Origin: a virus
IMG/VR virus record: IMGVR_UViG_3300034190_001504
Coordinates: 1 to 35,246 of that record
Direction: 5' to 3' (one strand)
Length of the DNA: 35,246 nt
Positions 3,125 through 20,015 of this stretch are shown here, piece by piece. Below the pieces are notes generated by a model. That model saw only the letters and a program-made list of their open reading frames with translations, made no database searches and had not been told where the DNA came from. The translations under genes and the position numbers were made by a program. The stretch's first letter is position 1, and the number at the start of each line of letters is the position of its first letter.

Positions 3125-5334
3125 TAATACTTCACCATTCCAAACTCTTGCGCAATTAATGTAGCTAATTCTCTAGCTTTTAACTCAGCGTTCTTAGTGC
3201 CTTGCCATTCAGAGCTTTTCCTAATCTTTGTTTCTAAATTAGACAAACTCATAGGGTTACCGTTCTCATCAGAAAATTGCAACACATCTTTAAATTCGCC
3301 AAACATGTCAACAGGGCGCTCAAGCATATCTTCTATAGTTTTTTTGTGTGTAGAAAAATAATTACTTGGCATAACACCTCGTTCTAACACAGGTTTAGCT
3401 AACGCAGGGTACAAAGCAGCAGCTCGTTGAGCAAATTCTTCTAAAATTTCTGCGTCAGTTTTTTCTTCAGTAAATCGTTGGTCAGCTAACAACTGAGCTT
3501 CTTCATCGCTTAAGTTAAGAAAATAATTATTAGCGTTAGCTTTTATAGTTCTTACATCAGACATTAACTGTGTGTAATCGCCAACAGTTTCTTTCTGTGC
3601 CTTATCAGCCATAACAAATTCTCTAACAAACCGTTCATCGCTAATCTTATTACCACGTGTCAAAAACAACGACTTTTCATCTAACTCTTCATCAGTATAA
3701 GCAATACCTAACTGCCTTGCTAAATCTTCTAACATTCTTTTAGCAGGCAACAACTCTTCTTCTTTTTGAGGGTCACTCATTCTTTCAAACCGAGTATCAA
3801 ACTCTCTTTGAAAAGAAGTCGTTGTTTGAAAATAATTAGTAAAAGAAAATAGTTGCTCTACCCTAGCTGGGTCATTTAGAATGCCTTGCTGTTGTATGTA
3901 ATCAACAATGTGCATAGTAGTAACTTTGTTAGGGTCATTAACATCAACAGGTATTAAAAACGGAGTTATCATTCCCGTTGCGTAAATTGGTGCTCTTGAC
4001 ATTGCCTCTGGATTTGAACCAAGACCAATATGGAAATCTAAATTATTAGAATCAAGAAACAACCCATAGCCACCATATTGCTCTAACACCGGATTATCTA
4101 AAAATTGTGTTAAATAATTGCTTTCATCGTCATCATTCAAACCAGCATCTTGCGCCATTTGGCGACCTACATTAAAACCACTAACACTTCTAGCACTAAA
4201 ATCACCGCCTTTAGGAGGTCCGCTAAACGTAGCAGCAGTAGTGCTTTCCCCAACTACAGGTGCAGTAGTAGAAGTAGGGTTTAAATTAATCCCTTGAGAT
4301 TGCACTAGCCTATTTACAGTTGGATGATACGCTAAATGCCTGTCTATACTAACCGTATTATCTAACCCATAGTTTTGTGGATTTTGACCTTCAGGGTCAA
4401 CCATATACTGACCTTCTTGTTTCCTTCTTGTTTCTAAAATTGCTTCTTCTCCAGCTAATTTAGTTCCAGTTGTACCAGCCCAATGTTGTGCTAAAGGCTC
4501 GTAATTACCAGACTCAGTAGCTGCAAGAACTTTACGTATAGTTTCAGGACCAGAAGAACCAGCATTAAAAACTAAAGACAAAGTAGAAGCCTGCACAGTT
4601 TCAGGCATACTCATAAAAATTTGACGACCAGCAGCTATAACTTCTTCTCTGTCGTTAAAACCATAAACTGTAGTATCCCCATTGCTTTTTACTTCTAGCC
4701 TTACAGGACCATCCCCACCTTCATAGTTAATATTTTTAAGTCCCCAAGCACTTGCCCAATTATTTTTAAGGCTTTGATCTGCAAATTCTGATATTACATT
4801 ATTTTCACCATAATGAGTTCGTGCAGATTCCCCAAATGCTAACTCACCATAATAAATTTCTAAATGCGTTTGAAAATCTTGTTCAAATAATTTATACGCA
4901 GCATCATCAGGAATACCATTATTAGGACCAGCAATATTGTATGTCTCGCCATTAATAGTTATACTTCTATTTTCAATTTCGTCATCAGAAAGACGATGCC
5001 CAAAACCTATTGTTTTAATTCCTTTAGCATCGTCGTAAACAGGATGCAAACCTGTTGCAGCATTGTACTCTTCACCTTCAAATGAAAGAATCAGCGCTTT
5101 ATGATTATCAAAATTAGAAGATGCACTAGGGTCAGAAGGTGCAATAGGTCTTCCTGTAGCTGAAATAATAGATCGTTCTCCCCCAACAGTACCTGTCGTA
5201 AAAGAATTTATAGTATTAAAAGCAGCTTTAGCATTAACATACTCATCGCCCCCAAGTCCATGCTGACTCTTTGCATACTCAGGGTCATCAATTATTTTTT
5301 GAAACTCACCCCAATTAATTTCAGGAATTGCCAC
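3124..5334 (-). CDS. Virion-associated lysozyme (GH24-like domain) in a large internal protein
   Basis: 736 residues from a GTG at 5334, chosen because GGGGGG lies about 7 nt upstream and the overlap with the previous gene is then only 14 nt; an upstream start at 5421 would overlap by 101 nt. Near residues 82-112 it has FEGEEYNA, then YDDAKG and KTIGFGH. These are the marks of phage T4/P22-type lysozymes (catalytic Glu about residue 86, Asp about 102, Thr about 108, then GFGH), followed by a helical segment with VFNAGSSG. The spacing from Glu to Asp is about 7 residues longer than in T4 lysozyme. The remaining 400 residues are helical and unrecognised. It probably travels inside the head and opens peptidoglycan for DNA entry. 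Confidence 0.75.
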   Translation of the reverse strand: MAIPEINWGEFQKIIDDPEYAKSQHGLGGDEYVNAKAAFNTINSFTTGTVGGERSIISATGRPIAPSDPSASSNFDNHKALILSFEGEEYNAATGLHPVYDDAKGIKTIGFGHRLSDDEIENRSITINGETYNIAGPNNGIPDDAAYKLFEQDFQTHLEIYYGELAFGESARTHYGENNVISEFADQSLKNNWASAWGLKNINYEGGDGPVRLEVKSNGDTTVYGFNDREEVIAAGRQIFMSMPETVQASTLSLVFNAGSSGPETIRKVLAATESGNYEPLAQHWAGTTGTKLAGEEAILETRRKQEGQYMVDPEGQNPQNYGLDNTVSIDRHLAYHPTVNRLVQSQGINLNPTSTTAPVVGESTTAATFSGPPKGGDFSARSVSGFNVGRQMAQDAGLNDDDESNYLTQFLDNPVLEQYGGYGLFLDSNNLDFHIGLGSNPEAMSRAPIYATGMITPFLIPVDVNDPNKVTTMHIVDYIQQQGILNDPARVEQLFSFTNYFQTTTSFQREFDTRFERMSDPQKEEELLPAKRMLEDLARQLGIAYTDEELDEKSLFLTRGNKISDERFVREFVMADKAQKETVGDYTQLMSDVRTIKANANNYFLNLSDEEAQLLADQRFTEEKTDAEILEEFAQRAAALYPALAKPVLERGVMPSNYFSTHKKTIEDMLERPVDMFGEFKDVLQFSDENGNPMSLSNLETKIRKSSEWQGTKNAELKARELATLIAQEFGMVKY

Positions 5335-6496
5335 GTGCGCTACCCCCCAAAGACCTAATAACATTAACAACCTGTTCAGCAGCGTTAACAGTTTCCCTAG
5401 CTTGATACCGTTGCGTAACATTTCTACCTAAATCACCTTCAGTAATAGCATCACCAGCTCTTGCAGCTAAATTAATATTAACCGGAGCATTTTCAGATAA
5501 TTGCAAATCAAAAATCATTTCCATAAAAATATCTTTTTCTCGTTTAGTAGCTTTTCTACCTAACAAATTAACGGAAGCAGTTTCCATAGCATTGAATACG
5601 CTAACTTGATCTATCATTCTAAACGCATCGTTACGACGGGTTGCTGCTCTTTCTTGCGCAAACAAAGTTCTAATTTCATCGCTACTTAAACCTGTTTCAT
5701 CTGTTTGTACACGTGCAAGAATATTAAAGAATAAAGGCACATCAAACCCACCAGTAAATTGATCTCCGAATACTCCTTGTGGGTCAGGGAATTGTTGTAA
5801 ATCTGGACCGAATCTTGTAGCTAACCGTACAGCGTTATTTACTGCTTGGTCAAACGCAGCGTAATCTAATTCGTATTCGCCTTCATCTTCGCCTCTTAAA
5901 AAAACAGCATCATAATTGTCTTTGCCATATAGCCCGTGATAAGCAAGCTCCATCGCAAAATCAATTAATTCATCGTCAGTTAACTCAGTAAGTAACTCCC
6001 GTACATCACGTTCAGTTTGGCGCACTCTTTCATTAGTTTCTTCATCATAAATGTATCCAAGAGTAGGTTCTTGCCCTGCCCGTAATGCTGCTTCTTCCTC
6101 AACATCTGCTACGTCGTATACTGGTTCTTCAAAATCAATAACTGCATTCAATAAATTATTAGCCGCATACCTGCTAAAATCTGCATTATCAAATGCGTTG
6201 CCGTCAGCATCTTTAAATGCCTTGTTTATTGTTTCATTAGCTAACCTGTCATTAGTTACTTTTAATATTTCTATATCTAAAAAATCAAGCAAATTATCTG
6301 TAATAGCGTCTTTATCATCAGCTTTACCTAATGATTTCCCATTAAAATTAGTAAAAAAACTTTCAGCAAACGTTTTAAGTTCGTCATCGCTTAAACCTTG
6401 AACATACGTAATAACAGCTAACGCATTAGCTTCTGTTAAATACAGATATTCAAAATCTCCATCGTCGTCTCTGTAATCGTCAAGGTTTCTACTCAT
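5321..6496 (-). CDS. Internal virion protein of unknown function
   Basis: 391 residues from ATG 6496, overlapping the end of the giant gene by 8 nt; its ribosome site is weak, so translational coupling is likely. The protein is acidic and helical, with two similar helical stretches (GLSDDELKTFAESFF near residue 34 and ELTDDELIDFAMELA near residue 172), each with a DDEL-x-x-FA core, suggesting an internal duplication. No signal peptide, membrane segment or catalytic motif. Its place between the giant protein and the lysozyme protein suggests one of a set of three or four proteins of the internal core. No family recognised. Confidence 0.6.
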   Translation of the reverse strand: MSRNLDDYRDDDGDFEYLYLTEANALAVITYVQGLSDDELKTFAESFFTNFNGKSLGKADDKDAITDNLLDFLDIEILKVTNDRLANETINKAFKDADGNAFDNADFSRYAANNLLNAVIDFEEPVYDVADVEEEAALRAGQEPTLGYIYDEETNERVRQTERDVRELLTELTDDELIDFAMELAYHGLYGKDNYDAVFLRGEDEGEYELDYAAFDQAVNNAVRLATRFGPDLQQFPDPQGVFGDQFTGGFDVPLFFNILARVQTDETGLSSDEIRTLFAQERAATRRNDAFRMIDQVSVFNAMETASVNLLGRKATKREKDIFMEMIFDLQLSENAPVNINLAARAGDAITEGDLGRNVTQRYQARETVNAAEQVVNVIRSLGGSARGNS

Positions 6497-15404: not shown

Positions 15405-17315
15405 TTAACTTTCTGTTACCCAAGTTGGTCGCCACTGTCTAATAGGCTCAGACGGAGGCACGTACAATTTATTAAGATTATGTTCTACGAACCATTGTGC
15501 CATTACACAGTCATCAGTTCTAGACCCTGTGCCTTCTGGATTCCATTTTGTTACTTCATTAATTAAAAGCAACGAATGAGGTCTAGCATCAGTATGCTGT
15601 TTACCAGCAAGCCTAATACGACCCAAACGATACAACGGTGCAAGCATTTGCACACCATACTTAGGGTCACCTTTGTTACGAGAATGCGTGTAGTGCGGAA
15701 TAAGCTCTACACCACGCAACGCAGACCACCGCCGGAAATGATCGTACTGCAAAATAAACTTTTGAGCAGCGTTAGCCTCAACTATCCAATGCGTAATCGG
15801 ATGACCAATATCGTTACTTATTTGCCACCACTCTTCAGCTATCCCAGTAAACCGTTGCGTGTCATGGTTCCAATCAAGAAACGACGGAGCATCCATTTTT
15901 TTTCTATACGACTCTAACAAATACCTGTACTCTGACTCAGGACAATACGCCCAACATTGCAACGCCCAAAAATTAGACGGTGACGGGTCCGCAGACGCTA
16001 TAACCATAACTTCGCCAGCTAAATACTTTGGCACTTCCCACAAGTCACGGTCTTTATCCCAACACCCAATATACTCTACACCATTATCGCCTTGCCCCCC
16101 ACTAATCCATAAAGGGTCTACAAGCACAGACGCAGGGTCAGTGTCTTCCTGTTGATATAGTATTTCGTAACGGTCAGGTGTTTGCGCTTTAATATGTCGT
16201 ATACGTCGCCACGGCAACCTACGAGGATACAACAAACAACCTTCAGGATACGCAACGTCACTAGGTTTATGCAAATGATTGCACCTGTCATCATAATGCG
16301 CTTTAAATTTAAGATGCGTGTACTTACGTTCGCCTTCCGTATCTACTTTATTTTCATCAAGTTCTTCAACATCATCTTCATCATCTATCGGAGCAAACTT
16401 ATCTAACGCATAGCGGTAAATATCGTCAGAAGCCATACGCTGTCCCTGCAATATAAGCAACCCAGCAGGCTCTAACCGTGTTTCAGCTACCTCATCCCAC
16501 CAACGATACATATCAGAACGAGACTCAGAGTTACGCATCTTGCGAGGGTCCCACACATCATCCCAAATAATAAGATCAAAACGACCACCAAGAAAACCAG
16601 AGTCCATACCAAACGCAGACCACGACGGTTCTTTCTGCGATAACGGCACATCACCTTGTTGCACTACAGTAAACGCTTCAGCACGCCAAATTTCTTTAGC
16701 GTCAGGCTTAAACTGCCCAAAGTCTTGTTGCATAGTACGTTCAGCGTCAACCGCTAAACCTAACTTAATGTCGTTTAGCTCAGCACGGGCAACATGCTCA
16801 CGTTCAAACTCCGCTCTCAAACGCCGTGTATACCATTCAGCGAGACGTTGGGTTGAGGAACCGAGCATCCCTCTAATGGCTCTGTTACGAACCGTTGCCC
16901 ATGCTGGCAAAACTTTAGCAAAAAATGTAGATTTTCCACTTCCAGGTGGTGCATTAATAACACAATATTCCTCTAATGGTGTTTCAAATAATTCAAATAT
17001 CTTTTCTGTAGCTTCTATTTGCCACGGCTGCAAAACAATACCAAAATAACGCAACGCAAATTTTTCAATATTATCCCAACACTCCTGAACTTCTACATCC
17101 AGCTCCTCATACACAGGTATAGTAGATACACCTACACGTTCAGTTTGCTCTTTAGCGACAACATAGTTGCGTGTAGACACACGCCCAGACTCATTGTCCC
17201 TAGCTGAATGATAATTAACGCCAGCCTGTTTAGCAGCCTGATACATACTTAAACTGCGACGCAGCAATAAATACTCAGCCCACTTTTCTACAGGTGTAGC
17301 TTTACCAGACCCCAT
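15405..17315 (-). CDS. terL: Terminase large subunit with an N-terminal helix-turn-helix-like segment
   Basis: 636 residues. It is the DNA-packaging motor: ATPase plus headful or site-specific nuclease. Walker A is APPGSGKST at residues 122-130, Walker B is FDLIIWDD at 246-253, and the nuclease domain begins with VIASADPSPSNFWAL, with a later acidic TDDCVMAQWF. Residues 17-45 (LLRRSLSMYQAAKQAGVNYH) look like a helix-turn-helix, unusual at the N-terminus of a large subunit. The gene starts directly after the TAG of the upstream small gene. No separate small terminase subunit was recognised, so the N-terminal segment may carry DNA recognition. Terminase identity is well supported; the fusion idea is inference. 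Confidence 0.92.
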   Translation of the reverse strand: MGSGKATPVEKWAEYLLLRRSLSMYQAAKQAGVNYHSARDNESGRVSTRNYVVAKEQTERVGVSTIPVYEELDVEVQECWDNIEKFALRYFGIVLQPWQIEATEKIFELFETPLEEYCVINAPPGSGKSTFFAKVLPAWATVRNRAIRGMLGSSTQRLAEWYTRRLRAEFEREHVARAELNDIKLGLAVDAERTMQQDFGQFKPDAKEIWRAEAFTVVQQGDVPLSQKEPSWSAFGMDSGFLGGRFDLIIWDDVWDPRKMRNSESRSDMYRWWDEVAETRLEPAGLLILQGQRMASDDIYRYALDKFAPIDDEDDVEELDENKVDTEGERKYTHLKFKAHYDDRCNHLHKPSDVAYPEGCLLYPRRLPWRRIRHIKAQTPDRYEILYQQEDTDPASVLVDPLWISGGQGDNGVEYIGCWDKDRDLWEVPKYLAGEVMVIASADPSPSNFWALQCWAYCPESEYRYLLESYRKKMDAPSFLDWNHDTQRFTGIAEEWWQISNDIGHPITHWIVEANAAQKFILQYDHFRRWSALRGVELIPHYTHSRNKGDPKYGVQMLAPLYRLGRIRLAGKQHTDARPHSLLLINEVTKWNPEGTGSRTDDCVMAQWFVEHNLNKLYVPPSEPIRQWRPTWVTES

Positions 17316-18791: not shown

Positions 18792-18866
18792 ATTATTACT
18801 GAAGGAAATACAGAAACCGGATTTCCACACCGCCCCGAGGAAGGGGAGCAGGAATAAGAAGGACAG

Positions 18867-18977
18867 ATGAGACATCATCAGCACAAGAGTTCTTCTGAAG
18901 GGTTGAAAGTCCCCAAAATATGCGAGTCTTTTGTCCCGATGAGAAAAAGGGGCATTAAAGGGAAGGTTCCACCGTGA
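18867..18977 (+). CDS. Possible 36-residue basic protein in the early leader
   Basis: ATG at 18867 with AAGAAGG four bases upstream, the same spacing as for the next gene at 19141, to TGA at 18975-18977. The peptide begins MRHHQHKSSSEGLK, has one Cys, and ends in a basic stretch (VPMRKRGIKGKVPP). No family firmly recognised. Its ribosome site can pair with CCTTCT at 19080-19085, which is also a strand of the hammerhead-like motif. It may be a leader peptide, or the frame may be fortuitous within a structured leader. Confidence 0.45.
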   Translation: MRHHQHKSSSEGLKVPKICESFVPMRKRGIKGKVPP

Positions 18978-19067
18978 TGACGGATAGTAAAACCCTAGTA
19001 CAATCGCTTAACCGGCACCTACCGGTATACTAGAGATGGAGGCTGTATAGCCCTAATCGTAAATTAG
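18965..19067 (+). ncRNA. Array of hairpins in the early leader
   Basis: Successive stems lie head to tail: GGTT/AACC (18965-18994) enclosing CCGT/ACGG (18972-18983), ACCGG/CCGGT (19011-19026), GGCT/AGCC (19041-19052) and CTAAT/ATTAG (19053-19067). A further stem GGAAAT/ATTTCC is at 18804-18826. They lead directly into the hammerhead-like motif. The density of perfect short stems suggests a folded RNA rather than chance. Confidence 0.5.
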
Positions 19068-19079
19068 ACATCTTTCTTT

Positions 19080-19136
19080 CCTTCTCTGTGGAATTAACCA
19101 CACTGATGAGCACCCGCAAGGGATGCAGAAAGAAGG
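19080..19136 (+). ncRNA. Type III hammerhead ribozyme candidate
   Basis: The pieces occur in hammerhead order. Stem III strand CCTTCT (19080-19085), cleavage-site C (19086), stem I hairpin TGTGG-AATTAA-CCACA (19087-19102), core CTGATGA (19103-19109), stem II GCA-CCC/GGG-TGC capped by a GCAA tetraloop (19110-19126, with A19123 bulged), core GAA (19128-19130), then AGAAGG (19131-19136) closing stem III in 6 perfect pairs including the required A15.1-U16.1. Predicted cleavage is after C19086. One departure: A19127 is an extra base between stem II and GAA. The AGAAGG strand is also the ribosome site of the gene at 19141. Confidence 0.7.
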
Positions 19137-19140
19137 CACA

Positions 19141-19332
19141 ATGGAAGAATATGAACGTAAGTTACGTAAAGCACGCCGTGACCGTGAACTTAATCAATTA
19201 CGGTTAGAGCGTCTTCGCAATCGTCAAGCGCATAAAGCGCTACGGTGGGAACGTGATCAACGATTTGACGGTGTAACCCAACTCGGTACGGGTGGACTTG
19301 CACTATTTGAAGGACAGAACTTAGTTAGTTAG
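19141..19332 (+). CDS. Small basic helical protein, first gene after the early leader
   Basis: 63 residues from ATG 19141, chosen because AGAAAGAAGG ends 4 nt upstream; an in-frame ATG at 19123 lies inside the ribozyme-like motif. The first 45 residues are a highly charged helix (MEEYERKLRKARRDRELNQL and following), Arg-rich, likely coiled coil or RNA/DNA-binding, with a short Gly-rich tail. No family recognised. Its translation may depend on opening or cleaving the hammerhead-like motif that holds its ribosome site. Confidence 0.7.
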   Translation: MEEYERKLRKARRDRELNQLRLERLRNRQAHKALRWERDQRFDGVTQLGTGGLALFEGQNLVS

Positions 19333-19336
19333 TATG

Positions 19337-19372
19337 TCGGAGCACATCGTGAGATGTGTTCTAGGGTGCTAA
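19337..19372 (+). repeat. Intergenic hairpin element, copy 1
   Basis: GAGCACATC (19340-19348) pairs over 9 bp, with one G-U, to GATGTGTTC (19353-19361), closed by a GTGA (GNRA) loop. It is followed by TAGGGTGCTAA. It lies between the genes at 19141 and 19400. Copies 2 and 3 are at 19655 and 19980. Confidence 0.8.
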
Positions 19373-19399: not shown

Positions 19400-19645
19400 A
19401 TGGATTTACAACCACTACTAAATGAGCTAGCGAAAATGTTAGTTCCTCTAGTGATAGCGAATCTTAATCCAGAAGAGTTAGACTTCTTCAAGGGTGAAGA
19501 TAAACCTGCGCTAGATGATGAGACAGTAAAGCAAGCTTTAATAGATACCCTCAAAGAAGGGTGGGTTGATAGCGAAATAGAAGAGCAGATTCAATATGTT
19601 GTTGACAATGGTAGCTGGGACTTTGGTATAAATTTCTCGGCATAG
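19400..19645 (+). CDS. Acidic early protein of unknown function
   Basis: 81 residues, ribosome site AGAAAGAAGGAAGAT. A hydrophobic N-terminal helix (LLNELAKMLVPLVIANLN) is followed by acidic helical segments (DDETVKQALIDTLKEGW) and a C-terminal VVDNGSWDFG. The N-terminal helix could contact a membrane but is short and charged at its edges. Flanked on both sides by the repeated hairpin element. No family recognised. Confidence 0.7.
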   Translation: MDLQPLLNELAKMLVPLVIANLNPEELDFFKGEDKPALDDETVKQALIDTLKEGWVDSEIEEQIQYVVDNGSWDFGINFSA

Positions 19646-19654
19646 CTTGATAGC

Positions 19655-19692
19655 TCGGAGCACATGTGTAAGCATGTGTTCTAAGGTGTTAA
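19655..19692 (+). repeat. Intergenic hairpin element, copy 2
   Basis: GAGCACATG (19658-19666) pairs with CATGTGTTC (19673-19681), loop TGTAAG, followed by TAAGGTGTTAA. Compared with copies 1 and 3 the innermost pair is G-C instead of C-G, a compensatory change that supports an RNA structure. Confidence 0.8.
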
Positions 19693-19720
19693 GTAAACAT
19701 CAATAAAGAAGGGAAAGATA

Positions 19721-19979: not shown

Positions 19980-20015
19980 TCGGAGCACATCTTTGGATGT
20001 GTTCTAGGGTGTTAA
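19980..20015 (+). repeat. Intergenic hairpin element, copy 3
   Basis: GAGCACATC (19983-19991) pairs with GATGTGTTC (19996-20004), loop TTTG, followed by TAGGGTGTTAA. It shares the longer upstream stretch AGCTTGATAGCTCGGAGC with copy 2. Located between the genes at 19721 and 20046. Confidence 0.8.

Follow-up and report, generated by a model that had tools for sequence, protein, structure and literature searches.

Hammerhead ribozymes have been described in phages, as a sequence-only reading of the present locus had already stated, and their functions there are unproven (PMC6155905; available text of PMC3088659). The role of hammerheads in phages and bacteria has accordingly been called an open question (PMC6155905). 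The available text of PMC3088659 reports that phage hammerheads often flank genes and have been proposed to cut long transcripts, that some natural core variants show little or no activity, and that active natural core insertions are on record. The closest precedent to the motif described here is HHphage of the haloviruses HF1 and HF2 (Perreault et al. 2011, PMC3088659), which is likewise a core-insertion variant and lies 13 nt before the gene that opens an early polycistronic transcript. However, its insertion adjoins C3 and stem I, the virus is archaeal, and the available text of that paper describes no overlap with a ribosome site. The sTRSV-type type III hammerheads (RF00008) share with the present motif the topology, the NUH triplet, the CUGANGA and GAA core and the A15.1-U16.1 pair, whereas in the lineage studied here an A is inserted before G12, stem III is a Shine-Dalgarno (SD)/anti-SD helix and the motif goes undetected by Rfam. 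In prophages and in Streptomyces phages, clustered type II hammerheads are also found directly before gene starts and are presumed to process mRNA, but their stem II is open and the SD sequence lies outside the ribozyme. For the (+) hammerhead of the viroid CChMVd, De la Pena and Flores are said to have reported in 2001 that an extra A10 is kept for another function with activity retained; in contrast to the present case, that base is on the other strand, between A9 and G10.1. The glmS ribozyme is a natural, ligand-dependent ribozyme of an mRNA leader, whose cleavage leads to decay of the mRNA; it differs from the present motif in fold, and its cleavage switches expression off and releases no SD sequence. 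Hammerheads as such are thus already known in phages; searches of the open-access literature turned up none that is built from the SD sequence and has it as stem III.

The locus is part of a virus record of 35,246 bases, analysed in its entirety and referred to as the window. Terminase (15405-17315) and major head protein (732-1688) are encoded on the (-) strand, and small genes form a rightward cluster that begins at 19141 and is separated from the leftward genes by a non-coding leader (Table 1). Among the distant protein matches Streptomyces phages predominate, and the host is therefore likely actinobacterial. A blastn search of named phages returned nothing related to this region, and the predicted promoter of the first gene was no better than chance. 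An in-frame ATG at 19123 was discarded as a start because relatives either lack it or have it out of frame. The intergenic stretches between the first (+) strand genes hold three hairpins of almost the same sequence (CGGAGCACATC...GATGTGTTCTAGGGTG...; window 19337-19372, 19658-19693 and 19980-20015), found also after the first gene in the relatives L001 and L002; these are possible RNA processing or regulatory sites.

Table 1. Features of the leader, the hammerhead and the first gene (window coordinates)
Feature	Position	Strand	Remarks
Conserved non-coding leader RNA, ~270 nt	18797..19069 (start approximate)	+	aligns in 5 relatives, covarying helices
Pyrimidine tract ATCTTTCTTTCCTTCT	19070..19085	+	CTTTCTTTCCTTCTCT invariant, 7 relatives
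Stem III 5' strand CCTTCT (anti-SD)	19080-19085	+	last six bases of pyrimidine tract
H17 cleavage-site nucleotide C	19086	+	predicted cut 19086/19087; C in 7/7
Stem I hairpin TGTGG-AATTAA-CCACA	19087..19102	+	strands 19087-19091 / 19098-19102, loop AATTAA; covariation
Catalytic core CUGANGA (here CTGATGA)	19103..19109	+	only N7 (T or C) varies, 7/7
Stem II hairpin GCACCC-GCAA-GGG-A-TGC	19110..19126	+	GCAA loop, one bulged A at 19123; covaries
Extra A between stem II and G12	19127	+	7/7; pairs with last base of actinobacterial 16S tail (assumed)
Core G12 A13 A14 (GAA)	19128..19130	+	invariant
Stem III 3' strand AGAAGG, within SD region	19131..19136	+	
SD region AGAAAG-AAGG	19127..19136	+	AGAAAG ends 8 nt before ATG
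First gene of (+) strand cluster, 63 aa	19141..19332	+	83% identical relatives in L001, L002

A complete type III hammerhead is found at 19080-19136 (+), with every catalytic-core base present together with one extra A, and each of the parts named in the sequence-only reading was located in the order and at the coordinates given there. Stems I and II are closed by loops and stem III is open, as in type III topology. The core C3 U4 G5 A6 N7 G8 A9 and G12 A13 A14 is present in seven of seven related sequences, as are the A15.1-U16.1 pair (here T-A) and C at the cut site. The core is not free of extra bases (A before G12 in all seven, and in L146 also C after A9), such freedom being a usual and not an absolute mark of hammerheads. 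On sequence grounds, the motif is thus classed as a type III hammerhead with a conserved extra core base. A structural scan of both strands (CUGANGA, stem I ≥ 5 bp, stem II ≥ 3 bp, stem III ≥ 6 bp, a UH cleavage site and GAAA, one inserted base tolerated) matched the real window once and matched none of 400 windows randomised with a Markov-1 model. A search of the rest of the window for type I or II hammerheads found none. Rfam scans with gathering as well as E-value thresholds returned no hammerhead in the window or its relatives, the gathering threshold of RF00008 Hammerhead_3 (48.5 bits) not being reached; as the same scans also missed canonical-core hammerheads in other contigs, this negative is uninformative.

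Conservation was assessed on seven distinct related sequences, i.e. the window, L001, L002, L118, L146, L161 and L166. L001 and L002 were found through the first-gene protein, and L166 was added by a pattern scan. A terminase search yielded 79 loci, with the motif upstream in L005, L007, L008, L014 and L081, which are on the same contigs as L002, L001, L161, L118 and L146, respectively. Loss of the core or its pairings in relatives had been named beforehand as an observation that would refute a hammerhead. Instead, the core (CTGAYGA, GAA, A15.1-U16.1 and C17) is kept in all seven, with variation at N7 alone, where the consensus allows any base, and stems I and II display compensatory changes. 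Five of their pairs differ on both sides among the sequences, each occurring as three pair types, with pairing kept, as counted on a hand alignment, which was used in place of a covariance model because MAFFT shifts the stem II register between stem II variants. The variants are TGTGG/CCACA, TTGGG/CCCAA, TACGG/CCGTA and TGGG/CCCA for stem I, and GCACCC/GGG-A-TGC, GGCTCC/GGAGCT and GATACC/GGTATC for stem II, and no broken stem I or II pair occurs among the seven sequences. Stem III is conserved and almost invariant, without covariation inside the lineage (L161 has one bulged base), which is expected if it is the ribosome site. Some terminase relatives are without the element, and it is therefore not essential across the wider group. 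The hammerhead is retained behind unrelated leaders (window type, L118 and L166) and before unrelated first genes; since leaders are exchanged while the hammerhead is kept, the module is portable. As seen with L118 and L166, relatives do not all have the same gene first behind the hammerhead: it is of the MEEYERK... family or of the M.APRT.GRYS.GR family, both small.

The SD sequence is located inside stem III in all seven relatives, and the earlier proposal that the 3' strand of stem III is at the same time the SD sequence is borne out by this conserved overlap and by its recurrence in unrelated phages. The usual actinobacterial 16S tail GAUCACCUCCUUUCU (...CUUUCU-3') is taken here to be that of the host. 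With this assumed tail, the best match is AGAAAG (19127-19132), in one helix comprising U15-A19127, C14-G19128, U13-A19129, U12-A19130, U11-A19131 and C10-G19132. The AGAAAG element also precedes the neighbouring genes at 19400, 20046, 20473, 20783, 21361 and 21908. The extra A, previously flagged as the one departure that might impair activity, is invariant and does not resemble decay: it is found in all seven sequences, even in L166 where stem II is a perfect helix, and is therefore no artefact of one stem register. Its place as the outer base of the AGAAAG SD is the likely explanation of the insertion, dependent on the assumed host tail, and a catalytic core doubling as the SD sequence would account for this otherwise puzzling base. 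A base inserted between C11.1 and G12 was not among the tested insertions found in the literature and could slow cleavage. As the core GAA and the extra A would both belong to the SD sequence, the 16S tail and the ribozyme fold would compete for them. The hammerhead at this locus, built from the ribosome-binding site, is real and conserved, and almost certainly functional.

For each of the seven sequences, the fold predicted to have the lowest energy is the hammerhead itself or is no more than 0.7 kcal/mol better. In the window, the local RNA has the hammerhead as its minimum-energy fold, with a competing register that ties in a longer stretch, and in L118 and L146 a competing fold is slightly more stable. 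The mean unpaired probability predicted for the SD (stem III side) is 0.02-0.25 in the uncut RNA versus 0.53-0.86 in the 3' product alone, across all seven. After cleavage the two strands are predicted to pair still, at about -9.7 to -13.7 kcal/mol; with the assumed 16S tail, the SD gives a similar energy of about -9.3 to -10.5 kcal/mol. The post-cleavage duplex is thus as strong as SD-16S pairing, and release may be slow. The SD would open only once the strand is lost or a ribosome competes for the site, and a delay in place of a clean switch is therefore quite possible.

Self-cleavage of the hammerhead as a one-way on-switch of translation, with release of the leader, would probably be the best explanation of the locus. 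It draws on the observed sequence and structure, the covariation, the conserved core, the SD overlap and the recurrence in unrelated phages. The hammerhead lies where the structured leader RNA meets the gene that opens the rightward (+) cluster, and stem III as well as the 3' strand of the catalytic core would be made from the SD sequence of this gene. As transcribed, the fold would conceal the ribosome site. The predicted cleavage after C19086 would leave no more than a short intermolecular duplex to cover the site, and departure of the leader, presumably fast enough, or ribosome competition would then open it. The putative control of expression would consist in a one-way, ribozyme-timed translation start, accompanied by a released leader RNA of ~290 nt. 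An RBS-built hammerhead would thereby have a concrete and easily tested function, namely a ribozyme-controlled start of translation.

Similar arrangements were found in a scan of viral contigs with the pattern CCTTNT-H ... CTGANGA ... GAAANAAGG, in which a start codon was not required. Type III hammerheads over an SD sequence were observed in at least four unrelated phage groups; among the matches listed, the structure filter kept L202, L258, L266 and L271 together with the related L188, L189, L213 and L280. An ATG follows AAGG at 5-12 nt in 8/8 structured sequences among the matches listed, versus 38/110 structure-less pattern matches, many of them redundant (Fisher p = 0.0004). AAGG was built into the pattern, and the SD-using fraction of all phage hammerheads is not derivable from the scan. 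L202, L213, L258 and L266 are without an extra core base, and L188, L189, L280 and L271 have one extra base after A9. The predicted fold buries the SD in most of the eight; L271 is less clear, and in the minimum-energy fold of L258 the stem III strands are paired and stems I and II unpaired. A pattern scan of genome contigs gave only matches without hammerhead structure, and a CCTCCT/AGGAGG version of the search gave two matches, both without structure. Tentatively, such 'SD-hammerheads' may be recurrent, convergently built phage regulators with the RBS as stem III, in which cleavage would act as an irreversible on-switch or timer and release a structured leader. Ribosome binding and ribozyme folding would then be mutually exclusive, and in the present lineage the RBS would also be part of the core.

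The leader itself (Table 1) is a candidate new structured phage RNA. Across five relatives, 92.9% of cells are paired and nine pairs show two-sided change, a result not reached in any of 500 shuffles, although the structure was derived from the tested alignment itself, which favours it; pairing falls strongly once the partners are slid. Folded as a single sequence, the leader shows no unusual stability (z -1.2), no known family was matched in Rfam, and in L118 and L166 its place is taken by other leaders of about the same length. A leader conserved with covarying helices may have a function of its own, and an active hammerhead could then mainly process the transcript, cutting off the leader to give a stable leader RNA and a 5'-OH mRNA, with the SD overlap as a non-regulatory by-product of compact packing. 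We consider this rather unlikely. The proposed cutting of long transcripts by gene-flanking phage hammerheads (available text of PMC3088659) is consistent with it, as are the type II hammerheads of Streptomyces phages, which precede gene starts without the SD as a stem. Conversely, the position of the SD within stem III in all seven relatives and in several unrelated phages (in the latter AAGG was selected by the search) and the near complete predicted burial of the SD argue against a role in processing alone.

The future 3' tail of the leader (19070-19086) is invariant over 14-16 nt, versus the six needed for stem III in the window. Many genes of this phage have SDs to which the stretch is complementary (-12 to -14 kcal/mol). 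The released leader might thus act in trans, its tail AUCUUUCUUUCCUUCUC pairing with many same-phage SDs, or mimicking the 16S anti-SD, and thereby delaying translation. The predicted pairing of the tail with the SDs of the next genes (-11.9 to -14.1 kcal/mol) is stronger than that of those SDs with the 16S tail; still, any SD-complementary pyrimidine tract would behave likewise, an alternative register with the GAAAGAAGG of the leader's own gene also explains the tail, and the unrelated SD hammerheads are without such a tract, making a trans-acting leader improbable. That a degenerate hammerhead is kept solely as an SD-blocking hairpin, without cleavage, is very unlikely too: the extra core A departs from the consensus and natural variants are sometimes weak or inactive (available text of PMC3088659), but the unpaired core is invariant in all seven sequences while the paired stems drift, N7 is its sole variable position, a bare hairpin requires neither feature, and mere SD occlusion gives unpaired core bases no reason for conservation.

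Type II hammerheads were also encountered. In L258, one gene lies between the type III hammerhead over its SD (5140-5198) and a type II hammerhead (5365-5450), the latter just before the next start codon. In two annotated Streptomyces phages, the stretches L316 (VieEnRose; near 302 and 850) and L317 (Loofah; near 847 and 1159) have two type II motifs each, and the sites at 850 and 847, respectively, are directly before gene starts and unannotated.
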